Of a stretch of DNA of 64,000 nucleotides, positions 1,577-62,516 are shown piece by piece. Under the pieces are notes generated by a model. The model saw only the letters and a program-made list of their open reading frames with translations. It searched no databases and was not told the DNA's origin. The number at the start of each line of letters is the position of its first letter. Position 1 is the stretch's first letter. The position numbers and the translations under genes are program-made. This DNA is from Roridomyces roridus (Eukaryota; Basidiomycota; Agaricomycetes; Agaricales; Mycenaceae): positions 186,001 through 250,000 of the forward strand of contig JARKIF010000005.1 in the NCBI GenBank assembly GCA_029378245.1, in the 5' to 3' direction.

Positions 1577-4531
1577 TTAATCCAGGTTCTCTACGATCTC
1601 CTTCAAACTCTCTCGGATTGCCCGAACGCGGTCCTCCACCGAGTCCAGCGTCGACTTGAGGACATCGAGCTCCAGCTTGAGTTGCACCCCAGTAGACGCG
1701 CCTTGAGCAGGATTTGAAGGTGCCGCTTCGGGGCTGGGGGGAGCACCCAGCTTCAGCTCATCGAAGAGCGCTGTAACGACCCCCGCCACCCACTGCTCCT
1801 TATCATCCACCTTGGCCAGTTCCATCCCCCGCTTCCGCTCCTTGCTCATGGCTTTGCCCATCCGCTTGTACGTCCATACGTTGCTGATCACCAGCACGAC
1901 AATAAGGACATACAAGATGGTCGTCCAAGTCGAGTGCTCCCACGCCTCGTGGATCAGCTCGAGTGCGCCTTTAGTGCTTTGCTTGGCTACATTCGACGCA
2001 CCCTCGAACGTATCCCACGCCCACTGTAGTCCGCGCTGCGAACGCTCCCGCTCGCGTTGCTTGGGCGACGGGTCTGCACCAGCAGCAGCAGCAGTCTCAA
2101 GCGCTGCTTCTGGTTCGGGCGGGGCGAGCTCGGCTGCATCCACACCCGCGGGCATGAACTCGGTCTGGTGGGCGGAGACGTACGACCTCATGGCCTTCTC
2201 GAGATCGGTATGGTATAACTTTTGCCCGTGGATAGCGGAGCTCTCGATGATGCCTATGAAAGACATAAGAACGTCCCAAGATACAATGACGACACTGACC
2301 CTTGATAAAACTGCGGCCAGTCCATTCCACTTCGGTCGTCACGACAACCTTGCTCGATAACGCAGTGGCCCACATAATGCATGTCCTCGTCTTGACGGAG
2401 AATACACCTCCGCTAGGAACGTCAGGGTTCTTTGTGGTCGTGATGGTTGAGGTATAGTCATCGAAATCGAGGTGTATATTCTCGTCTCTGATCTCGCACT
2501 TGGTCTGCTTGGGGCCAATACTGGCGTTCAGCGGCTTGATATACGACATATTGCGCGCAAGAAGCTTGGAACCAGGCGTAGTGGGGGTCCAATCAGCCAC
2601 TTGGATATCTGCAACCAAGGTCAGATAAATCGAATCAGTTCGAGACGAACGCACCAAGTAGCTTCTGGTTGACGGCGAGAAAGTCCTTCATAAAGCCACT
2701 CGCAAACATGAGATTGTAAATCCTGTCCGGAGTGCCAGGTAAGACGATGTCCATCGCACTTTCCTTGTAGTGCTGTCCCTGTTTACCACAGGCGCATTGG
2801 GTTGCTTTACGTTGAACGGCGGCCCCGCCCGCCACCGCCGCAGCACCAATGATGGTTCCCTCGGTAATATTCGCAGGGGGGCCTCCTACCGACCCAGAGC
2901 CAATGGAGGCGGCGTCACTTGGGCGCACCAGTCGCCAAATGTTGTGTATCACGTCAAAAGTCGTGTCCCGGGAGAGGAACGAAGCAAAGGTATTGTCCCC
3001 GCGGGCAGTGACGACCCGAATGGCGTTTGGGATCACAAAAGCAGTCGTTTTCTTCTCCAAGGCGGTAATTTCGTAAATTGGAATCAAAACCTGGAGTCGG
3101 TTAGATAAAATTCATCAGTCAAAGATGGAACACAGACATCAGTAACCCAGCCGAATATGTTAGCATGGAAGCAAAGGTGGTTTTCAGAAACATAAATCCT
3201 TCCTTGAATTAGAATTTCCCTTTGTAGGGCACAACCGTAATCTCAAGAAGGGTAAGATATTTGTCGAAGAGAGAAAACAGTGGATGCGTACCATCAATAA
3301 GATAGTCTCCTTCAGGAATGCCGGGAAACAGCTCATGAAAGTCGGCATTCCTCTTGTTGCTTGCCACAGCAAAGCCGGTGACAGGTATATCCTCTTCTCC
3401 CAAATCCAAGTCTTCCAGATCGCTGCCACTCTCGTCGTCTGAATCGCTCCCGCTGCCACTCTCGGAGCTCTCATCCAGCCCAGAATAGTAGCCGGAGTGC
3501 TCTTCCGGGAAATAGCCTCCCTCGCCATGGCTCGCCACCGAACCACCCGTTGTGCGCCGTCGCTGATGGTCTGGCTTATCCTTGGGTGAGGCGTGCCCAT
3601 TCGAGCCGGTACGACGCCGACGATGTGCAGACTCGGGACTGATTGTCTTGCGGCGCGGGTTCGCACTGGGCGAGGTCACGAGCGAGGGGCCGTTCTCCGA
3701 AGCCTCGTTGGTGTTCATAACCTGCGGGCTCAGCGTCGTCTGATGCGGGGCCGTCATGGCTGGGTTGGCCATCGCAAGACCTGATGCAGCGATCGCGCCT
3801 GCAAGGCCCATGGGCTTTTTGGGCGTGCTTCGCTTCCATGGCCGCGAGGTCGACTTTTTCTTTTGTCCCTGCGACGTGACCGACAGAACATCAGTATCGC
3901 GTCGGGTAGCTGCACGCGGTATTGATATTGACGATGAGGGACTCGTCTGAGGAAAGTCGGTCGGTCGCAGGGCTTCTGGCGAGTCGACTATGGACCGTGG
4001 CAGCGGTTCCTCCTCTTCGTGACCAGAAGAGGATGTGGGTGCGGACGCGGGAGATGTGGCAGCCCGTGTATGAGCGGAGGGCATGGGAGGCACCGGCGGT
4101 GCAAGTTCTTGAAGCTTGACAGACTTGCTTGAAGCGGAAGACTGCCGCCTTACGAGAGGGAGACCACTGAGGGGCATTTGTGGTGATGAAGTTGGGGATT
4201 TCTTCGGTGTCGGTGGCCTAGGAGTTGTGTTATTGGTCGCTGGTAGGCCGTCTATCTTGTCGCCGTTGCTGGTCGGTTCAGATGCAACAACGGGCGACGG
4301 AGGGATCACAGCAACACTAGGATTGTTGGAGGAATACACGGAGACCCCGTTGGTTCTAGTGCCTGTAGAGACTGTATTCGAAGAAAAGCCGGATGTGTTC
4401 CTCGAAGAATTGTCGACGTAAGAAGGGGTGCTGCTGCGGGAGGGGGGAGAAGGAGAGCTTAATGAGCGATCCCGGTTGTTGTTGTTCGTCGCAGGCTTAT
4501 TTACAAGCTTGGAGAGAAAGTTTGGGGCCAT
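1577..4531 (-). CDS. Lam/Ysp2-family GRAM-VASt sterol transfer protein at membrane contact sites
   Basis: Predicted ER-anchored lipid (sterol) transfer protein of the LAM/Aster family, acting at ER contact sites. Seen: the start codon at 4529-4531 opens a roughly 430-residue Ser/Pro/Thr-rich disordered region (MAPNFLSKLVNK...). A GRAM domain follows across introns near 3290-3070 (FHELFPGIPEGDYLI, RIYVSENHLCFHANIFGWVT, VIPIYEITALEKKTTAFVIP). A VASt (StAR-like) domain covers about 2660-2290 (YIKPLNASIGPKQTKCEI, VKTRTCIMWATALSSKVVVT). A single transmembrane helix (TILYVLIVVLVISNVW) lies near 1900 and a C-terminal coiled segment (LDVLKSTLDSVEDRVRAIRE) ends at 1577. GRAM, then VASt, then a TM near the C-terminus is the family's domain order. 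The gene points the same way as EMG1 but 1 kb separates them. Confidence in the family is high; which yeast paralogue it matches cannot be said. Confidence 0.9.
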
Positions 4532-36570: not shown

Positions 36571-36880
36571 ATCAGACCAAACCAACAATGAACTCGGGGA
36601 TGACAGGCGAGACTGATTGTGGATTATTATGAGGAGATTGAATGATCGGCAGCGTGGGAATGTTTCACATAACAAGCGGATGCCAGCGTGCAAATTAGTG
36701 ATTATTGGTGGTAAGGTAGTACAGTGGAGGTAGTGAACTGAGGGGAAAGTGGGGGAATTCTTTGTGTTTCGGTACTGACAACATGTCGGTAGATACACTG
36801 GCCTTATAAAGAAGATGCACGAAAATGCGATGGGATGGTTATCTCAGAGCAATGACTTAGTTCAGGCCGGGCCCATAACC

Positions 36881-37178
36881 TGTTGAAGCAGGCAGCACAG
36901 ATGAATTGAGGTCAACAGTGAGAAACTCTGTATTGGTGATTATGAAACTACATGCCTGAGGTCAACAGTGAGAAACTGGGGACCTAGGCTACATGACAGC
37001 TGACTATATACGTGTCAGAACAAAGAGAAGTCCTAATTGGTAAATACAATAGGAAAGAAGCATATCATGGGAGAATTCCCATGTCAGATGAATATCAGAA
37101 ACACGGTCACATGACCAGAACACGAGAATGCCATCAGTCCATCAATCAATATCATCAGTTGATCAACAACTTCCAACA
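36881..37178 (-). repeat. 3' LTR of the copia element
   Basis: 298 bp, TGTTGAAGCAGG to ACTTCCAACA on the plus strand. Next to it at 37179-37188 lies CTCCCCCGGG, which on the element strand is the polypurine tract CCCGGGGGAG used to prime plus-strand synthesis. Confidence 0.93.
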
Positions 37179-37204
37179 CTCCCCCGGGACCTGGGCAATC
37201 TCGC

Positions 37205-39521
37205 CTAGCTCCCCCGGATTCCCATAAGTCCTAGTAGATGTTCCAGAGCAGGACGAGGGAGGGGTTTTGTGAGCAAGTCAGCTAACTGCTCCTGGGTTGG
37301 CACATATTCAATGTGAAGAGTGCCTCTGGCAACTTCATCTCGAAGCCAGTAGTGAGCAAGGTCAAGATGTTTCATCCGACCATGGTGCTCAGGATTTTTG
37401 GATACTTGAATGGCAGACTGGTTGTCCATGTAGATCACAGAACTGCCAAACACCTTGTACCCCAACTCCCATAGCAAATTGCGCACCCATTTTGTCTCCT
37501 TGCCTGCATCCACTCCTGCAATGTACTCTGCTTCAGTGGTGGAGAGCGATACTGTAGACTGCAGCTTGCTCTTCCAGCACACTGGTGCACCATTCATCAT
37601 GACAACATATCCACCTGTGCTTTTCCCAGTGTCTTTGCAGCCACCATGATCAGCATCAGTGTAGGTAATGAAGGAAGTGCCAGATGGTGATTTGGTGTAG
37701 GTGAGTTTGTAGTTCAGAGTACCTTTGATGTAGCGGAAGAGATGCTTCACGGCTTTCCAGTGGGCTTCACCGGGATTGCTATTGAAGCGGGAGAGGATGC
37801 CGACAGCAGTGGAGATGTCAATGCGCGTTTGGGTAGCCAGATAGAGAAGAGATCCAACTGCAGAGAGGTAGACAGATTTGTACTGCTTGGACTCCTCTTC
37901 AGTCTTGGCTCCCATTTCCTTGGTCAGGACAAGTCCAGGAAGCATTGGAGTGCTCACTGGCTTGCAATCCGACATGTTGAACTGCTCAAGCATGTTCACA
38001 GCATATTGGCGCTGTGAGAGAGAGACGGTGCCAGCCTCAAGGTCGCGCTCAATCTTGATGCCCAGTAACCACTGTGTGGGACCAAGATCCTTGACCTTGA
38101 CTGATTGGCCAAGTTGAGCAATGACCCTGTCTATGTCTTTGTTGTCTTTGGCAGCAATGGTGCCATCATCAACATAGATAGGAAGGATGATCCGCACTTT
38201 GCCATCATAGTAGACATAGCAAGAGCGATCAGACTGGGTGCACCGGAAGCCCATAGTTAAGAGCTTTGCATTCAACTTCTTGTTCCATTGGCGGCCAGCT
38301 TGTTTCAAGCCATAGATGGACTTGTTAAGTTTGAGAAGCTGGCCCTTCTCTCCTTGTGGAAACCCTTTGGGCTGAGTCATAAAGACATCCTCCTCCAGGT
38401 CTCCATTGAGGTAAGCAGATGAGAAGTCAAATGAACGAAGCTGAAGATCATGCTGAGCAGCCAATGCAAGGACAATGCGCAGGGTGGCATGCTTGAAGGT
38501 GGGGGAAAAGATCTCGTTGTAGTCAATGCCATGGCGCTGACCGCGACCATCTGCAACAAGTCGAGCTTTGTAACGCTCAATTGAGCCATCAGACTTGTGC
38601 TTGATGACAAAGACCCATTGAGAGCGGATTGGCTTGACGCCAGGAGGTGCATCTACAACATTCCAAGTGCAGTTCTCAAGGAGAGAGTTTATCTCTGAGA
38701 CTGCAGCTTCTTCCCAAAGATGTGCATCAGGTTGCCGCAATGCGTCATGATAAGAACGCGGATTGCCTGACTGGATGGCGGACCTGGCATACTCCACAGG
38801 TCGCCGCAGTGCGTCATGATAAGAACGCGGATTGCCTGACTGGATGGCAGACCTGGCATACTCCACAGAAACCGAGTTGGCTTCTTGCAACACCACATCT
38901 GCTGGATTGCCTTCATGAGCAACAATGAGAGCACTGCCTGAAGTGAGCAGCAACTCATCATCGCTTTCTGAGTCTGGATGGGGGATAGGCTCAGGCTCAG
39001 GCTCATCATCAGAATCAGGGACAGCAGGAGTTGGCTCCCTAGGCGTTGTTTTCCACCATTCACCAGGCTGCCGATGTTCAGTAGTTTGGCCATGGAAGCG
39101 GCAACGTGCGGCAATTCCAACTGGTGAAGGCGGGTTTAGAGCTGGATCTGGTGATTGGGAGCGGCTAGGGGGCAGCTCGACTTGAGCTGGTGCTGGTGGA
39201 GGAGTGTGAGGAGGGGAAGGAGGAGGCTCTGGATTTTCAGCCTCAGGGGGTGCTCGATGCACATTGAAACCGTCATCATCGTCATCATCACTATCATTTC
39301 CATCTCCCCCGGCATTGTGCACACCCTTGGGCTTGGTGGCAGGCAAAGGTAGGTTTTGGATGGAGGAGGAAGGAGGTTTTTTAGGGCAACGCCGCAGAGC
39401 TTGTGGGTTATTCCCAGGGAAGTAGCGCTCGTCAAAGACAGCATGTTCTGCAATGACAATCTTCCGAGTGACAGGGTTATAGAATTTCCAACCCTTGTAT
39501 TCTGTTGGATACCCAACAAAG
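37205..39521 (-). CDS. Copia polyprotein, integrase tail, reverse transcriptase and RNase H
   Basis: Open from the inserted solo LTR down to a stop at 37205. Begins with the integrase C-terminal segment (GYPTEYKGWKFYNPVTRKIV), then an acidic and Pro-rich linker, then the copia RT (NVVDAPPGVKPIRSQWVF, YKARLVADGRGQRHGIDYNE, FSPTFKHATLRIVLALAA, LRSFDFSSAYLNGDLEEDVF, catalytic LPIYVDDGTIAA). RNase H follows with TDADHGG, STTEAEY, MDNQSAIQ and the terminal QLADLLTKPL. Catalytic Asp residues are all present and no frame break was seen. A 69-bp tandem duplication at about 38738-38875 repeats 23 residues starting VEYARSAIQSGNP. Activity is unlikely because of the upstream insertion and missing gag. 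Confidence 0.9.
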
Positions 39522-39862
39522 TGTTGGAATAAGAGGGCCGGAGGATGGTCCGCTCGACGAGGTCGACTAAAGGGCGACTAAGAGGAGTATATGAGAAACC
39601 AGTGTATTCGGGTTCTTTCTCTCTGAGGAATAACCTCAGAGAGGGAAACTACTTATACAAAGAGCGGCAGCCAACTAGTAAGCTACTATGAGTATCCAAG
39701 GTCCGTTTATCCGGTATTGGTACCGCTAATGTAACTATATCGAGTCGATCTGTCCCACACGGATCCTGATACATAATTATCGTGTATGTAAACGTCCATG
39801 ACAATCGCGAGAGGGGAAGGGAACCGGGTACCTAACTGCCAACCCGTTCCCACCATTCAACA
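39522..39862 (+). mobile_element. Solo LTR, family beta, with CAAAG target duplication
   Basis: 341 bp from TGTTGGAATAAGAGGG to CACCATTCAACA, flanked by CAAAG at 39517-39521 and 39863-39867. It lies within the integrase coding frame of the copia element, which would be continuous without it. Relatives are at 42814-43151, 62684-63038 and, truncated, 63426-63550. Confidence 0.92.
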
Positions 39863-41273
39863 CAAAGATGCATTTCTGGAAGTGTATTCCAGAGGTGTCG
39901 TGTTTGTCCTTCTGCACAGGCACATAGGCAAGGCAGCCAAAGACCCGAAGATGTGTCACATCCGGCTTCTCCTTGTGCCAAAGCTCATAGGGAGTGGTGT
40001 CATCCGGAATGTGAGACGTAGGATGCATGTTGGCCACATGGATGTAGGACTCAACAGCAAGTGCCTTGAAAGAAGGCGGAAGATTTGCTTCATGCAACAT
40101 GGCAGTTACATGTTCATCAACGGTGCGATTGCCCCGTTCAGCCATTCCATTCTGTTGCGGTCTATTCCTCGTCGAATGACGACGCACAATGCCCTCTGCA
40201 GCCAGAAAGTCTGCAAATTCAGTGGACATGTACTCTCCACCTTCATCATCCTGGAACGCCTTGATTTTGCGATTAAAGTGATTCTCAGCTTGCGCCTTGA
40301 ACACCTTGAACGCTTTCAATGCTCCACTCTTGCGCTTCATGTGCATAGTTGCTTTGAAGCCTGTGTGATCATCTATGAAGATAATACGATGCTTCCAGCC
40401 CTCACAGGTGAAAACCTTGTATTGCTTCAGATCAGAGTGTATGAGATCAAGAGGCGCCTTGGAACGATGTCCAGTGGAGGGAAATGGAGCCGCATTGAGC
40501 TTTCCTGCAATGCAGGGCTCACAGATTGGATCTGGTTTCTGGTTTGAAGTCAACTCCGCACCAGTCACCAGCTCCTTGCTCAAGATCTTCTGGGTGTCAG
40601 CATGATGCCCAAGCCGCCGATGCAGCAGTTCCAGATCAAGAGGCAAGGTGCCAACTGCAGACATAGCTGCATAAGTCGGCTGTTCAATCTCTCGGACATA
40701 TGCCTCGTTCCTCTCATCAATGTCTGCCTCAAATAACAGCTGTCCTTCCCTTTTGAAGGAGATCAGAGACCCCTCCATGAGAATAGAGTAGCCATGAACT
40801 TTGGACAGGTAGGTCTCAGAGATGAGATTATGGGACAACATTGGAACATAGAGGACATTTGTGAGGATTATAGACCGGCTGTGGCGTCCATGTACAAGTG
40901 GCTCAAGCCGGATCTCTCCAATCAGCTCGGAGTATACAGCAACTCCATTGGCCACAAGAATGGCAACTCTGTGCGGACATGCATTGAGCAAGCGTTCACG
41001 CATGTGGGTCATGTGTGAAGTAGCTCCAGAGTCTGGTTTCCATTGTGTGGACTGTAAAGCTGAATTGTAGAGAATGCTTGCACTAGACGCCAAATGAAAC
41101 AACTCTTCACTAGGGGTTTCTTCCCTGTCCTGAAGCAGCTCCAAAAACTGAGAGCAGTTGAACAGGGTGTGACTGGGATTGCCACAACCAATGCACGAGG
41201 CAGGAAGGGCAGGAGGGTTGACAGGAACGCGATATGGCATCGAAATGATAATGGTGATGTGGTGGCAGATCAA
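39863..41273 (-). CDS. Copia polyprotein, zinc knuckle, protease and integrase core
   Basis: Minus-strand frame with zinc knuckle CIGCGNPSHTLFNC (CX2CX4HX4C), protease site WKPDSGATSHM (DSG), the GAG-pre-integrase block LELLHRRLGHHADTQKIL and CEPCIAGK (HHCC zinc site), and the integrase core with DLIHSDLKQY, FQDDEGGEY and RPQQNGMAERGNRT carrying the D, D and E residues. It runs to HFQKCIFV, where the solo LTR is inserted. Upstream of the zinc knuckle the frame has no ATG with convincing gag sequence; a stop lies a short way before it. Confidence 0.88.
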
Positions 41274-41627
41274 ATGATCGCAGGGATTCAGAACGAAGCA
41301 GAGATGCTTATGTCTGATAGATGGATGCTAGAACCAGTGCAGAGCAGCTGGCGCCCTCAGGAACGCGTGTGTGAAAGGATGTGACTAAAACTAGCTCTAC
41401 TGAGCAACCAGTTGTCGAGCACTCGGGCCCTAACCCCAGAAGCAACGGAGTGACTACCGTTTGTTTCCTGGTGGACTAAAGACTACCTCCCAAAGAGGGT
41501 TTGTCCCAACAGTTGAAGCTCCTATCTACAAGGCTCACACACAACGTTATAAGGGTAGCAGAGCGCGGGAAAATACGCGAAAATGCGATGGGATGGTTAT
41601 CTCAGAGCAATGACTTAGTTCAGGCCG

Positions 41628-41639
41628 GGGCCCATAACC
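41628..41639 (-). promoter_or_regulatory. Copia primer-binding site matching the initiator tRNA anticodon arm
   Basis: Directly after the 5' LTR the element strand reads GGTTATGGGCCC. This is complementary to the anticodon stem-loop (GGGCCCATAACC) of eukaryotic initiator tRNA-Met, not to its 3' end. Drosophila copia is known to prime from such a 5' half tRNA. Confidence 0.8.
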
Positions 41640-41937
41640 TGTTGAAGCAGGCAGCACAGATGAACTGAGGTCAACAGTGAGAAACTCTGTATTGGTGACT
41701 ATGAAACTACATGCCTGAGGTCAACAGTGAGAAACTGGGGACCTAGGCTACATGACAGCTGACTATATACGTGTCAGAACAAAGAGAAGTCCTAATTGGT
41801 AAATACAATAGGAAAGAAGCATATCATGGGAGAATTCCCATGTCAGATGAATATCAGAAACACGGTCACATGACCAGAACACGAGAATGCCATCAGTCCA
41901 TCAATCAATATCATCAGTTGATCAACAACTTCCAACA
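41640..41937 (-). repeat. 5' LTR of the copia element
   Basis: 298 bp, two substitutions from the other LTR. It abuts the tRNA-bearing miniature element at 41938 with no spacer. Confidence 0.93.
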
Positions 41938-41947
41938 TGTTGGAAAA

Positions 41948-42023
41948 TGGCTGAAGCAGGATTCGAACCTGCGACCTTCTCAGTATATTCGAGATGCTCT
42001 TTAACCAACTGAGCTATTCTGCC
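41948..42023 (-). ncRNA. tRNA-like sequence in the 3' LTR of the miniature element
   Basis: 76 nt: acceptor GGCAGAA/TTCAGCC (one A-A mismatch), D arm GCTC/GAGC, anticodon stem TCTCG/TGAGA, loop AATATAC, variable AGGTC, T arm GCAGG/CCTGC around TTCGAAT, and discriminator A. A box TAGCTCAGTTGG and a perfect B box GGTTCGAATCC; TTTT follows at once (41947 to 41944). The nominal anticodon would be TAT (Ile), but position 33 is A rather than the invariant U, which argues against a normal decoding tRNA. Confidence 0.75.
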
Positions 42024-42190
42024 GATAGTGTGAAGGGAACTCCCAGAAGGACCTTCAACACTCCCCCGGAACCCGAACACTATTGGCTCTTTGGGATCTC
42101 ACAAAGGGGGGCACCATTTTCCTAGGCACTGGCCAGAATGCGGTCGTTACTCGTCTTACATCTGGTAGTTGCTGCTACCATGTTGGAAAA

Positions 42191-42266
42191 TGGCTGAAGC
42201 AGGATTCGAACCTGCGACCTTCTCAGTATATTCGAGATGCTCTTTAACCAACTGAGCTATTCTGCC
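42191..42266 (-). ncRNA. tRNA-like sequence in the 5' LTR of the miniature element
   Basis: Identical to the copy at 41948-42023 in every base, including the A at position 33, the A-A mismatch in the acceptor stem and the TTTT terminator. Being in the 5' LTR, pol III transcription from here would stop six bases before the LTR end and before the interior. Confidence 0.75.
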
Positions 42267-42303
42267 GATAGTGTGAAGGGAACTCCCAGAAGGACCTTCA
42301 ACA

Positions 42304-42655
42304 TCCACAGCATCTTACCACTGTTGGACGCGTGAAACAAGTCTTGTCGTGACATGCCCTGTTGCTTTGACTCAAAGCCAAGCCAAATACTTGCCAGCGT
42401 TTTCGATCACAACTCTACCTAATCGTCTCCTTGTGGCCAGAAACAGGCGTGTCATGGTTTTGTCCAGTCTGTGCTGAGTTATTCTACTTGTGTATTTGTT
42501 GATGCTCCCAGCAGTCATTGCAGTAAAGCATCTGACATCCCCCAGGAGATAGACGAAGATTTTCAAGACACCAAAGAAGAGGAGGTCCCAGTTGCATCCA
42601 AAGCTGCCCAAGGACGAAACTACACACTACGGCAGATTGCACCAACTCTTCCGCC
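42304..42655. other. Region without recognisable gene
   Basis: About 350 bp right of the miniature element. No domain or repeat match within the window was noticed. Confidence 0.35.
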
Positions 42656-42813
42656 AATGCACCAATGCATGATCTTCAGCTTTGCTCCTTTGACTTCTCA
42701 TCCGCTTACCTCAATGGAGACCTGGAGGAGAATGTCTTTATGACTCAGCCAGCAAGGTGCCAACTGCAGACATAGCTGCATAAGTCACCAGACTCTGGAG
42801 CTACTTCACGCAT
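42656..42813 (+). repeat. Scrambled copia pol fragments
   Basis: Plus-strand HDLQLCSFDFSSAYLNGDLE near 42665 repeats the RT segment of the copia element. It is followed by a piece matching 40649-40676 and then an inverted piece matching 41011-41037. Three distant parts of one element are joined within 160 bp. Confidence 0.65.
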
Positions 42814-43151
42814 TGTTGGAATATGAGGGCCAGAGGGTGTGTCCACTCAACAAGGTCAACTAAAGGGCGACTAAGAGGAGTTGGTGAGAAACCAATGTAT
42901 TTGGGTTCTTTCTCTCTGGAGAACAACTCCAGAGAGGGAAGCTACTTATACAAAGTGTGGGGCTGACTAGTAAGCTACTATGAGTAAGAATAATCCGTTT
43001 ATCCGAGATTGATACCACTAATGTAACTATATCAAGCCAATCTGTCCCACACTGATCTTGGTACATAGATATTGCGTATGTAAACATCCGTGACAATTGT
43101 GAGGGCAAGGAGCTGGGTACCTAACTGCCAATCCGGTTCCACCATTCAACA
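42814..43151 (+). mobile_element. LTR, family beta, second copy
   Basis: TGTTGGAATATGAGGG to CACCATTCAACA, 338 bp, about as long as the solo LTR at 39522-39862 and clearly homologous. Flanks (CGCAT left, TCAAG right) do not match, so it is not a simple solo insertion; one side was rearranged. Confidence 0.8.
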
Positions 43152-43480
43152 TCAAGGTCAGACTCTCACTGCTGTACTGGACGCCCGAGATCAGGCAGCC
43201 CTTCCGGCAGAAGAACATCCACTATCATCGTGTGTATCTTCGCCAGCGCAACGACCGTGCCAAGTTCCTCCAGCTTCTCATTCCCTACATCCAGAGCACT
43301 CTCTTCAAGAAGAATGCCAGCGGTCAAGGCATCATCTTCTTCCAGTCCATCCCTGCCCTTGACACATTCCACAGTCGCTGCAAAGAGCTCAAACTGGATG
43401 TGGCAAGGTCCAATAATGGGTATGCAACGAGAGAGCATCAGGAAAAACCAGATCTGACAATCTGCCACAGATTGTCACCA
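43152..43480 (+). pseudogene. RecQ-like helicase fragment
   Basis: In one frame reads LYWTPEIRQPFRQKNIHYHR, VYLRQRNDRAKFLQLLIPYI and SGQGIIFFQSIPALDTFHSR. This resembles the start of the second RecA domain in RecQ-like helicases amplified in Agaricomycetes, including the GIIF strand. It is truncated by the beta LTR on the left and lost after about 43480. Family call is from pattern memory only. Confidence 0.4.
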
Positions 43481-44219
43481 ATTGGCAACAATCAGATGTT
43501 CTCGGCAATCCTCGACAATTCCCGACAACCCTTGAGAATTCACCACCAATGCTCACCATCAATTCAAACTCGAAGGGCCTTTCTCAGTGCTTCATTCAAG
43601 CTCATTCCCACTATGTAGTTCGGGCTCCTATACTATTATTGCTCACTCACTTATCACCAGACTGGTGCAAAGTCACTGTGTAGGTGTTCATTTGGCCAGG
43701 AATTGGGCCAGTATGGCAGCGAACAAATCCGTGTAATTGACTCACGGTGTGGGCCCTCAGGGACTTCAAGTGAGAGACTCAGAGAGGGACTTGCCAATGG
43801 AAGGAATCGTCATCTTCGGACGCCGTGTTGTCAAGGTGTTGCTGAGATGTGGGAGTCTCGGGCAGAGATCACCCAAAATACGACGTGGCAGAAGCGTGAT
43901 GGGGCATTTTCACTTCTCTCTTCTTAACCACCACCATCTCCTCACCACTCTCCCTTGCGCACTCCAGACCCACTGCTTCCTTGTTCAGCCACCAACCTTT
44001 GTTGACCCCAGTCAGGACTTCATCACTTCCTTGTCCCTTTGATGTCAGTAATCTCAGGGTTCCCCATCCTCCACTCACCTACGTTGCCAGGATGCCCTCG
44101 CACTTCAGTACTCGCAGTAGGAGATCGACCGCATCGTCGGGATGGCTGGATTCATGTACATTGGGTGGCTCGGCTGGTGTGTCTGCTATATCTCTCTCAG
44201 AACCTTCATATGCTAACCA
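43481..44219. other. Region upstream of the oxygenase gene
   Basis: No clear domain. Frames around 43703-44042 may hold N-terminal exons of the TET/JBP-like gene, but I could not join them. Confidence 0.35.
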
Positions 44220-45063
44220 CCACCTTCAGCATAACCATCCCAATCCTCAACGCTCACCGCCGCGTCATCGCCGTGCTCGGTGGGCGACCCAATGACCCCG
44301 AGTATGACCGCGCTACCACAGGTGCTCATGCGATGATGCAGGAGCGCCTGCCGCACCTGCGTCTCACACGGGAACGTTTGAGGCATCGACGCACGCGGCA
44401 TGAGTTTGCTGCCGTCTCGCGGGGTCCATCCTACGGCACTGGTCAAACGGAGCCAGGGGAGCTTTGCAACAACGTCACCAATACGCAGATCACGGACGAA
44501 CTCCTCGCACATGAATTCTTCAAATGCATCTCGGGTTTTGCTAACAGTGGGTCTGTCTCATCTTCCTCCTCACATAGTTTTCTGAATATGTACAGGTTTA
44601 TTCGCAATGTGGGCACCACGACTTTATGCCTACTACCAGATGCAGATGGAGAAGCTCTGCACTTGGAAATCCATGCGCTGGAACTTCCCCGGCTGCGCGT
44701 TCGCTGGTGCCACCTTCAATTTCGGTCCCAAGACGATAACCGCCCCGCACGTCGACTTTGCGAATCTCGCCTGGGGCTGGTGCTTCATCACCGCAACTCG
44801 TCATCCGTTTCCCTCCTGGGTCCACCGTGCTCATTCCCTCGGCGCTCGTCAAGCACTCAAATACCCCAATTGGTCGGAACGAAACACGGAGCTCATTTGC
44901 GCAGTACACGGCGGCGGGATTGTTTCGTTGGGTGTGGAATGGGTACAAGCCCGACTCGGCATTCGACAATGCGAGTGCAGATGTGAAGGCGCAGCGTGCA
45001 GCGGCGGAGGAGGCGCGGTGGGAGGAGGGTGTTGGGATGTTCAGTACTTTGGACGAATTGTAA
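44220..45063 (+). pseudogene. TET/JBP-like 2-oxoglutarate/Fe(II) oxygenase, internal deletion
   Basis: Family of dioxygenases that oxidise 5-methylcytosine or thymine; greatly expanded in Agaricomycetes. Seen: ITIPILNAHRRVIAVLGGRP, a basic helical stretch, SYGTGQTEPGELCNNVTN, LLAHEFFKCISGFAN, then across an intron (about 44547-44595) SLFAMWAPRLYAYYQMQMEK, CAFAGATFNFGPKTITAPHV and DFANLAWGWCFITA, with the iron-binding HxD in PHVD. The frame then shifts near 44794 and continues in another frame as LVIRFPPGSTVLIPSALVKH (with the second His ligand), RSSFAQYTAAGLFRWVWNG and a final MFSTLDEL, stop at 45061-45063. About 17 residues expected between the two parts (containing GGHLVLWDL in relatives) are missing, with a frame change. 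No start codon could be chosen with confidence. Confidence 0.75.
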
Positions 45064-45422
45064 TTTTACTGCTGTTTTTAATGCATAGACTTTGCTCATA
45101 CTCTACTGTGAATGACGAACACTGTTTCTGAAATGACGAACGCGCACAATTCCAGTCGGGAAAGTGACGAACGCGCCTTTCGGGTTTATCGGCATTGCTC
45201 CTCGGGCAGTATTTTTCTAGCTGTAGGGATGTATGGTGTCCTTCTTGAGCTGGGAAATTTTGAACATCTTAAGTTCAAGCCATTATCTCGGACTTTGAGT
45301 GAAAAAAATATTAATTGGTGGGCAGTAGATATTCGGTGCTCTGAATTGACCCGTACAAAGCCTGATCTTCTGTATACTCTCTTGATCAGAAACCACCACT
45401 ACTTCTTCACCATCTCAAACTC

Positions 45423-46092
45423 ATGCCACCAACTCGCCCCTCAGCAAGGACTAAAACACCTCTCGACCCCTCTACTGCAAAGCTCCGGGCACGTTTGCAA
45501 AATACGGCTGCTCAAAAGCGGTACCGCCAGCGCAATCTTGAAGTCACCCGAGAGAAGGCACGCAAGAGAATGCGTCGGTGTGTCGCAGTGCTATCTCTTG
45601 CACTCGTTCTTACTAACTACTGCTACAACAGTCGACGCGAAGCACAGAAGGGTTCTATTGACGCAGAGAAGGCATTAGAAGCTCGTTGTGAGAGAGATGC
45701 CGAGAAGCGTGAAGAGTGCGTTTCCCTACACCTCAGTTGATCTACACCACTGAGTATCTACCCTCACAGAGCTCGTCGAACGTAAAGCCCTCCCCCCTCC
45801 TTCCCCGCTCCATCCCGTCCAAGCTCACCTGCCTTTCAGACAATTCAAAAAATGTTTTGGTGAAGATGCATTCAAACGCCATTATATCCCTATCCTCAAC
45901 AATAAGGATGTTGACTTGCTGCCGTGGGCCCGTTGGGATTGGGTGGAGGAGCAGGAAACCGCGCGCATTCGGGAACTTGACAAGATCATTGCCTCAACGC
46001 GATCGCCGGCAGCGCGTGAGGAGGCATGCATGGAGAGGGAGTTTTTGTGTCAGGGCCCACATTTGAAGAGATTTCGCTCCAAGGCCATTTGA
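45423..46092 (+). CDS. Basic-region (bZIP-like) protein of unknown role
   Basis: Three exons joined by GT..AG introns (about 45577-45631 and 45719-45770) from ATG at 45423 to TGA at 46090-46092. The N-terminus has NTAAQKRYRQRNLEVTREKA and RKRMRRRREAQKG, resembling a bZIP or related basic DNA-binding region. It is followed by a charged helix and a conserved-looking C-terminal block, FRQFKKCFGEDAFKRHYIPI and DVDLLPWARWDWVEEQETAR. I have a memory of similar small proteins in other mushroom-forming fungi but cannot give a function. A leucine heptad after the basic region is weak, so dimerisation by a zipper is doubtful. Confidence 0.6.
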
Positions 46093-50685: not shown

Positions 50686-50816
50686 TGCATATATACCAGC
50701 TAGAGTAGACCTGAGTCCCCAGTTTCTCACTGTTGACTCAGGTGTGTATTTCTTCTCATATTGAATAAAAGAGTTTCTCACTGTTGACTCAGTCCACTGT
50801 GCTTCCTGTTTTAACA
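50686..50816 (+). repeat. Truncated copia-type LTR, family epsilon
   Basis: Matches the 3' half of the full LTR at 51372-51659 (CCAGCTAGAGTAGACCTGAG onward) and ends GTTTTAACA. No primer site follows. Left part absent. Confidence 0.75.
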
Positions 50817-51371
50817 ACTAGGGATCACACTGCTGAGCACCAACCTACTGGCTAGATGGTACTGACAGAAATCACCGCAGAGCAAGTTTTCCAGGGCATC
50901 ACAGGCCTCGCCCGCATTGCCCTGTGCGACACCAACCCTGCAGTGTCTTGCTTTCAGAGCAGCGGCGGGACCGTGCAAGCGCCAGTGTGGTGATTATTAT
51001 GGTGATCAGGTAGCAGGTATCCTGAGTATACACCAGGAGAATGTGGCTGTGGCTGCCTTCAAGTATGAGCCAGATCTTTTTGGCTCCTATGAGATAAGTG
51101 TGATGAAGGAGTGGGGGCCTGTCGGCCTGAGTATCCAGCAGTTGGAGGGGTCTGGCAGTGGCCCAGCACTTTTTTCACTGCATGGAACATAAATTGTTTG
51201 AAGCACATACACTGCTTTAGATACTGGGATGGCGACCCTGATTCAGCGGAGAGGTTTGACAAGGCAATACAGGAGTGGTTAAGGACACTGCTGCCCCTGG
51301 GTGCGTGGAAGCGAGTAGCACCAAGCTTTACTCGGTCCAGAGGCAAATGCTTGTTTGACTTAAGTGCATAC
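50817..51371. other. Region without recognisable gene
   Basis: Open frames at 50917-51192 and 51111-51446 show no domain I recognise. It may be a residue of a gene interrupted by the LTR at 51372. Confidence 0.35.
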
Positions 51372-52236
51372 TGTTGGAGATCAGTGATTGTATCATCGAT
51401 CATCGATGGACTGATGGCATGTTTGTGTCACGTTCTAATCATGTGATTGTGTTTGATGGTATCATGCCCTTGTTCCCTTTATGGCATTCCCCTTGTAGTC
51501 TCTTATTTAGGCATTCCCTTTGTCTTGGTACACATATACCAGCTAGAGTAGACCTGAGTCCCCAGTTTCTCACTGTTGACTCAGGTGTGTATTTCTTCTC
51601 ATATTGAATAAAAGAGTTTCTCACTGTTGACTCAGTCCTCTCTGCTTCCTGTTTCAACAGGTTATGGGCCCCGTGCTTAACTGAGTGCAGCATCATCTGA
51701 GATCCTCATCTGACCGCATTTTTTGCGCTTTTCTGCCCCTTTTGTGTGTGCATAAGCTTTGTATATAGGAGCTTCAACTGTTGGGACGAACCCTCTGTTT
51801 TGAGGTAGTCTTTAGTACACTGGAAAACAAACGGTAGTCAATCCTTTTCTTTACCTACCTTTCCTCACACACACATTTGGGGCCATGTCAGACTCAGACC
51901 ACTCCAATGGGCCTCTGCTCACCAAGGATGTCCACTTCCCCAATTGGCAGAGCGATGCCAAAGCGTTTTTGCGTCGCAAGAACATCTACTACTGTTGCAT
52001 CTCATCTCCTAAAGCAGAAGATGCAGCAGATAGGGAGAAATGTGTTGGATATCTTTGGGGCATGCTATCCCAGGATGTCAAGCCCCAGGCACTTTTTGTT
52101 TAAACAGGAAGCACAGTGGACTTAGTCAACAGTGAGAAACTCTTTTATTCAATATGAGAAGAAATACACACCTGAGTCAACAGTGAGAAACTGGGGACTC
52201 AGGTCTACTCTAGCTGGTATATATGTGTACCAAGAC
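51372..52236 (+). mobile_element. Copia-type element remnant: 5' LTR, primer site, gag start, then an inverted LTR
   Basis: A 288-bp LTR (51372-51659, TGTTGGAGATCAG to TTTCAACA) is followed directly by GGTTATGGGCCCC, the same half-tRNA primer site as in the element at 36881-41937. A leader follows, then a gag start at 51885 (MSDSDHSNGPLLTKDVHFPN, WQSDAKAFLRRKNIYYC). After about 70 codons this joins at 52097 to the same LTR in reverse orientation, which is cut at 52236 by a miniature element. Both LTR subfamilies share two copies of GTCAACAGTGAGAAACT. Confidence 0.8.
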
Positions 52237-62204: not shown

Positions 62205-62516
62205 TTTGCCGACACAGCAAATGTTATGCTAAGCGAGACATGTGAAATCCGGGGTTTGATTTGAATGCCGAAACATTTGCTGGGCCAGCAAATGTTGCGC
62301 AAATAAATCGCAAATAAATAGCAAATTTTAAATTTGCTGGCCCGGCAAATGTTCCAATCTTGGCAGTGAAAGGGAATGCCTAAATAAGAAACTACAAAGG
62401 GAATGCCATAAAGGGAACAAGGGCATGATACCATCAAACACGATCACATGATTAGAACGTCACACAAACATGCCATCAGTCCATCAATGATCGATGATAC
62501 AATCACTGATCTCCAA
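62205..62516. repeat. TTTGC-rich miniature element copy 2 joined to a truncated epsilon LTR
   Basis: 62205-62365 has AGCAAATGTT palindromes and ends CCAATCTTGGCA. 62366-62516 is the first half of an epsilon LTR in reverse (ending GATCTCCAACA). The break in the LTR falls at nearly the same place as in the copy at 52236. Confidence 0.55.

Follow-up and report, generated by a model that had tools for sequence, protein, structure and literature searches.

What kind of element lies at positions 41938-42303 (minus strand) of the window, the whole stretch of 64,000 nucleotides of Roridomyces roridus DNA analysed here, and which enzymes would transcribe and move it? The original prediction described a miniature LTR retrotransposon in which both LTRs contain a tRNA-like pol III gene. 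Anatomy, ARAGORN and Rfam support this description, and the 123-bp identical repeats, the 120-bp interior, the primer site, the purine tract, the boxes and the TTTT were all found where they had been placed. We consider it rather likely that the element is a Helenus-type TRIM with a tRNA-derived internal pol III promoter, served by the enzymes of an adjoining Copia element termed Copia-X.

Anatomy and classification of the element

On the minus strand, the 366-bp element consists of a 5' LTR (42181-42303), a non-coding interior of 120 bp (42061-42180) and a 3' LTR (41938-42060). Both LTRs are 123 bp long and identical over this length, each starting with TGTTGAAGG and ending with CCAACA. The interior opens with TGGTAGCAGC flush with the first LTR and closes with CCGGGGGAG flush with the second. 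The primer-binding site (42167-42180) comprises 14 nt complementary to the 3' end of initiator tRNA-Met with CCA added, and the nine closing bases (42061-42069) form the polypurine tract. By eye, a possible hairpin TGGTAG-CAGCAA-CTACCA (42163-42180) encloses the primer site.

ARAGORN reported a tRNA-Ile(UAU) on the minus strand of both LTRs, at 42191-42266 in the 5' LTR and at 41948-42023 in the 3' LTR. Each LTR carries an A box TAGCTCAGTTGG (42248-42259 and 42005-42016) and a B box GGTTCGAATCC (42202-42212 and 41959-41969), in agreement with the Helenus motif set TRGCY, YGG, GGTTC. TTTT (42187-42190 and 41944-41947) stands directly 3' of the tRNA-like sequence and six bases from the LTR end; the coordinates of boxes and TTTT were converted from LTR positions 45, 92 and 114. 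In the covariance-model check that had been proposed for the LTR, Rfam family RF00005 scored 56 bits per tRNA-like copy at a cut-off of 29 (E 2.8e-10). An Rfam scan of 38000-46000 with E up to 1 returned tRNA only and no 5S rRNA family.

Kojima (2024) gave the name Helenus, a TRIMp3, to TRIMs with a tRNA-like sequence in the LTR, reported from rust fungi, three Agaricomycetes, animals and a lycophyte (PMC10886601). The initial view that no family with this layout had been described is thus wrong, since the layout is that of Helenus, Agaricomycetes included (PMC10886601). The parallel drawn to the plant Cassandra elements was right and is made by Kojima as well. Cassandra, as described in PMC10886601, is likewise a TRIM with a pol III gene in its LTRs, this gene being 5S rRNA in contrast to the tRNA-like sequence found here.

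In common with published Helenus elements, the present one is short (below 1000 bp) and non-coding, with no coding capacity claimed for its 120-bp interior; it has two LTRs holding a tRNA-like sequence with A and B boxes, a primer site and a purine tract (PMC10886601). The fungal families share further traits with it, i.e., 5-bp target duplications, the 3' end of initiator tRNA-Met among the primers and inferred Copia partners (PMC10886601). The tRNA type differs: it is Ile(UAU) here, whereas His or Thr was obtained for those fungal families that Kojima considered capable of encoding a tRNA (PMC10886601). The assignment to Helenus, made via defining features rather than published consensus sequences, is near certain. 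Because the defining features tested are present, Copia mobilisation aside, the element is an added member of Helenus and not a new kind. Other papers on TRIMp3 (any year) or on Helenus (2024 onwards) were not located in the literature searched.

The Helenus family and its transcription

A search of the source genome (90.8 Mb, 501 contigs) yielded at least 37 matching places, which were merged into 34 units on 19 contigs. Fourteen units have both LTRs (two of them interrupted), two are truncated and 18 are single LTRs. One two-LTR copy is interrupted by Copia-X with a 5-bp duplication and has a second insertion in its 3' LTR, and in another the 3' LTR is split. The 5-bp target duplications proposed as a check are exact in 19 of the 34 units, or in 16 of 30 after removal of four small-contig units repeating the flanks of others, though no target duplication exists at the window copy, where one side abuts a Copia LTR without a gap. 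Of the 12 LTR pairs measured within copies, 10 show 0-2 differing positions and the other two show 3 and 4, and the family therefore looks young.

Two identical tRNA-like copies 243 bp apart might also have come from a local tandem duplication of a tRNA locus. This origin is refuted by the dispersed copies and is hardly credible any longer, given the number of places in the genome, the clean 5-bp duplications, and a primer site and purine tract that directly adjoin the LTRs. The second refuting outcome named in advance, a single copy genome-wide, failed on the same dispersal.

LTR pairs about 3.4 kb apart at two loci, L027 and L028, had the look of an autonomous partner, i.e., a larger element with Helenus LTRs. 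This candidate was rejected: the pairs are single LTRs, separate from each other and set among nested repeats. A duplication of its own, CCGAC, flanks the outer LTR, and L027 and L028 share flanks. At L013 (contig C68), two oppositely oriented Helenus copies, both flanked by a duplication of their own, are separated by 171 bp, and a 12.6-kb contig (C438, locus L016) repeats the L013 flanks as an alternative haplotype would. At L014 (560-966), a complete Helenus is immediately preceded by part of a second Helenus interior, which in turn comes after a Copia-X LTR end; we read this as the trace of a tandem Helenus with Copia-X in it.

The original prediction spoke of a complete tRNA-like gene. 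Both ARAGORN and Rfam match the sequence, but 'complete' is generous, since a reading of the Rfam alignment gives an A instead of U at position 33 (anticodon loop AATATAC) and one A-A mismatch in the acceptor stem. U33 is near-universal in working tRNAs, and the tRNA-like part is taken here as a promoter rather than a working tRNA. Compared with 16 native tRNA genes, it is closest to Ile-AAT (59 of 76 letters, a loose count as that gene bears an intron). Among the tRNA matches listed in the genome, 27 of 61 fall inside Helenus LTRs, which are a warning for annotators of tRNA genes.

Transcription of Helenus by pol III is a plausible prediction. To describe variation in the promoter, changes were counted by letter in 46 LTRs, 27 of them distinct and 16 identical to the window LTR. 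The 12 positions of the A box hold two changed letters, both indel letters and none a substitution, small numbers in a box that has no CpG; many changes in the LTRs are C-to-T or G-to-A. Changed letters number 10 in the 11 positions of the B box, 35 in the 53 other tRNA positions, 2 in the 4 of TTTT and 21 in the remaining 43 of the LTR. B box conservation is not above that of the rest, and the 46 LTRs give no sign of its upkeep among integrated copies.

In either LTR, the TTTT comes after the promoter. A transcript initiated in the 5' LTR would therefore reach it before the interior, and full-length Helenus RNA would need read-through. The first T run is exactly four in 9 of 18 native tRNA genes read (several being near-copies of each other), and TTTT is for this reason probably an effective stop; most transcripts may end there. 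Cassandra avoids this problem because its RNA ends upstream of its own start, in contrast to the arrangement found here (PMC10886601).

Both the TTTT in the 5' LTR and a B box kept no better than its surroundings speak against the pol III model and would suit transcription by pol II from the LTR, with the tRNA-like part as a passenger or as the source of a short pol III transcript, about 90 nt long. We hold this possible, albeit on the unlikely side: many published Helenus families keep the layout with conserved A and B boxes (PMC10886601), and the A box of our sample is free of substitutions, within the small numbers given above.

Copia-X as probable mobiliser

The proposed mobiliser is a near-full-length Copia-X at 36881-41937 (minus strand), whose LTRs (36881-37178 and 41640-41937) are identical at 296 of 298 positions and in which two open stretches encode domains of reverse transcriptase and integrase. 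For the polymerase stretch, the best named protein match among 8000 candidates scored comes from Mycena citricolor (68% identical across 67% of the query). A nearer match in the same set is an unnamed metagenome protein (76% over 66%).

Several further repeats occur around this copy. Directly after its 3' LTR, positions 36817-36880 hold the first 65 bases of another Copia-X interior, and Copia-X therefore stood in tandem here. A piece of about 344 bp inside the interior (39522-39865) recurs alone at five loci (L027, L055, L056, L058, L065) and in this resembles a solitary LTR from a further family. At 50705-52208 and 62436-62488, pieces with about 72-85% identity to Copia-X belong to an older or related Copia family. 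Beside the repeat cluster, window positions 1-30000 are gene-bearing DNA with matches to the EMG1, BRCT, glycosyltransferase 2, FDF and Sec1 families, obtained by scanning 20 stretches in the whole window.

Copia-X was followed through the genome by a 29-base LTR word, allowing up to 3 mismatches, which gave 83 matches. We analysed 14 contigs of at least 1 Mb bearing the word (13 contigs) or Helenus (12 contigs). All but one of the 48 words on these contigs lie in one cluster per contig on 13 contigs (outlier C442:363428), and the clusters, Helenus copies included, span 7-37 kb. The same contigs hold 21 Helenus places; all 20 on word-bearing contigs are within 12.6 kb of a Copia-X word, and the 21st is on a contig (C24) that has no word. 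In 10,000 trials of random placement, 0.67 of the 20 places fell within 25 kb on average, and never more than 6. Nested and doubled places are not independent, and the placement figures therefore describe rather than strictly test. Genome searches of two other contigs above 1 Mb (C35, C124) found neither Helenus nor the Copia-X word.

Other reverse transcriptases are not placed in this way. At least 55 hits fall on the contigs analysed (150 listed of 256 candidates), and among those listed 36 of 55 are away from Copia-X words; none of these 36 has Helenus within 25 kb, and the shortest distance is 90 kb. Four 5-kb cluster pieces share 44-60% of their length mutually and four controls 0%, which carries little weight as the pieces were chosen around Copia-X words and the sharing is partly by construction. 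A further LTR family occurs in the same clusters. One main cluster per contig, as at centromeres, suggests that these regions may be centromere-like.

Insertion-tolerant heterochromatin would also give shared clusters: if selection removes insertions in genes, those in gene-poor DNA survive, and Helenus and Copia-X would meet there without sharing an integrase. The clusters are indeed repeat nests. The many reverse-transcriptase hits that persist elsewhere with no Helenus near them, together with the like placement of young Helenus copies, argue against survival as the cause, and we regard it as unlikely.

Joined insertions bring the two elements closer still. At L027 and its duplicate L028, the 5' end of a Copia-X LTR directly abuts the 5' end of a Helenus LTR, and a single CGACC flanks the joined pair on either side. 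The join lies inside the LTR of another family, of which L027 has an uninterrupted copy at 3011-3290. Since two successive insertions should leave a further duplication between them, a single ready-made composite insertion fits better. At L023/L065, TCACTGT, 29 A and CGGGGGAG stand in this order between a Copia-X 3' LTR and a Helenus LTR, an arrangement that looks like a chimera made by reverse transcriptase passing from Helenus RNA to polyadenylated Copia-X RNA. This locus is weaker evidence because the Copia-X part stops 1.3 kb into the interior, with no matching duplication there; its far end is rearranged. In the window, no base separates the Helenus 3' LTR from the Copia-X 5' LTR (41937/41938) and no duplication is present, and the history of this join is hard to read because the 65 bases of the second Copia-X start adjoin Copia-X. 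A scan of the genome for one form of flush join returned six sites (L027, L028, the window, C57, C224 and C491:132585). Blunt cDNA ends would yield such joins, as primer site and purine tract are flush with the LTRs in both elements. A paper on Triticeae deals with complex insertions through template switching between LTR retrotransposons (PMC1950507).

The two elements also resemble each other at their ends. The nine-base purine tract is common to both interior ends, and both LTRs start with TGTTG and end with CAACA. Beyond the purine tract, the longest word that the interiors have in common is 10 nt, which lies within the range of shuffled interiors (mean 9.1, maximum 12), and only the nine end-anchored bases were counted as interior likeness.

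Primer sites and LTRs differ. An initiator tRNA-Met gene with the 3' end GTTGCTGCTA was found in two places in the genome by its T-arm pattern. Both genes (L035, L036) were missed by ARAGORN and have, by reading, an apparent intron after the anticodon. In Copia-X, the primer site matches the spliced anticodon arm of this tRNA with 14 complementary nt, given the intron ends as we read them, and the first six bases of the site are without complement in the unspliced gene. Since the two primer sites fit different stretches, Helenus and Copia-X would use different parts of one tRNA.

This difference, which speaks against Copia-X, would be explained if Helenus were moved by another Copia that uses the initiator tRNA-Met 3' end, targets similarly to Copia-X and is extinct or absent from the assembly. 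Kojima matches Helenus to Copias via the primer site, and a Copia using that 3' end is reported in Puccinia hordei (PMC10886601); the further LTR family in the clusters may be counted on the same side. However, genome pattern searches found no Copia with the Helenus primer site near the clusters. They returned this site beside an LTR end in Helenus copies plus scattered single hits, unread, and the joined insertions involve Copia-X. That no Copia with the Helenus primer site was found near the clusters weighs against Copia-X as well. We consider another Copia rather unlikely.

Copia-X is held to be the probable mobiliser of Helenus, on the strength of co-location, common ends and joined insertions, and against the dissimilar primer sites, LTRs and interiors, a poly(A) chimera seen at one rearranged locus and a window join devoid of duplication. 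Under this reading, the 3' end of initiator tRNA-Met would prime the first strand at its complementary 14-nt site and CCGGGGGAG would prime the second. Co-resident Copia-X would supply the enzymes, and its integrase would insert both cDNAs, with 5-bp duplications, into the centromere-like regions found once per contig, a step of which co-location, duplications and joined insertions are the observed parts. Occasionally, as the joins suggest, the two cDNAs may be joined or recombined in a shared particle before integration.

Comparison with centromeric Copia systems and implications

Comparable systems have been described in other fungi. In several yeasts, Ty5-like clusters occupy one place per chromosome, and Wickerhamomyces anomalus has Ty5-like elements together with a non-coding Ty5.L whose LTRs differ and which is thought to use the proteins of its neighbours (PMC12711049). 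Copia-X resembles the Ty5-like elements in its one-place clusters and in a primer site on the anticodon arm of initiator tRNA-Met; Helenus resembles Ty5.L in being a non-coding companion with LTRs unlike those of its partner (PMC12711049). Ty5.L, however, has a 2.4-kb non-coding interior and the primer site of its partners, whereas Helenus would use the other end of that tRNA, and the passages on Ty5.L do not mention an LTR tRNA (PMC12711049). GlCEN427 is a centromeric Copia of Ganoderma leucocontextum, restricted on each chromosome to a single predicted centromere region (PMC10817607). Likened by description, it and Copia-X are both Copia elements of Agaricomycetes with one main region per chromosome or contig; the main text on GlCEN427 mentions no companion TRIM, nor does the term TRIM occur there (PMC10817607).

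According to Kojima, how TRIM dependence on an autonomous partner is maintained is not known, and nothing indicates the partner of Cassandra (PMC10886601). The tie of Helenus to one Copia family, Copia-X, looks new. Placement in one cluster per contig and Copia-joined insertions are added here to the published picture of Helenus, the main text of which is without centromeres (PMC10886601). More tentatively, Helenus could be a TRIMp3 living in centromeres, transcribed by pol III and parasitic on a centromeric Ty5-like Copia. Unlike this Copia in both LTR and primer site, it would be inserted by the integrase of the Copia and so spread tRNA-type, TFIIIC-binding sites through centromeres, a view we consider doubtful at present.

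In fission-yeast centromeres, tRNA genes act as boundaries or as sources of centromeric RNA. If this wider view of Helenus is true, tRNA-type sites in the centromeres could act likewise, as boundaries or centromeric RNA sources. One genome offers a concrete candidate pair of TRIM and Copia whose LTRs are alike only in their five-base tips. The two have an insertion niche in common and occur together in a joined insertion bounded by just one target duplication, as well as in a poly(A) chimera. Should the pair be confirmed, the use of a Copia by a TRIM would need neither LTR nor primer-site likeness, and tRNA-like pol III sites would be placed in centromere-like DNA.
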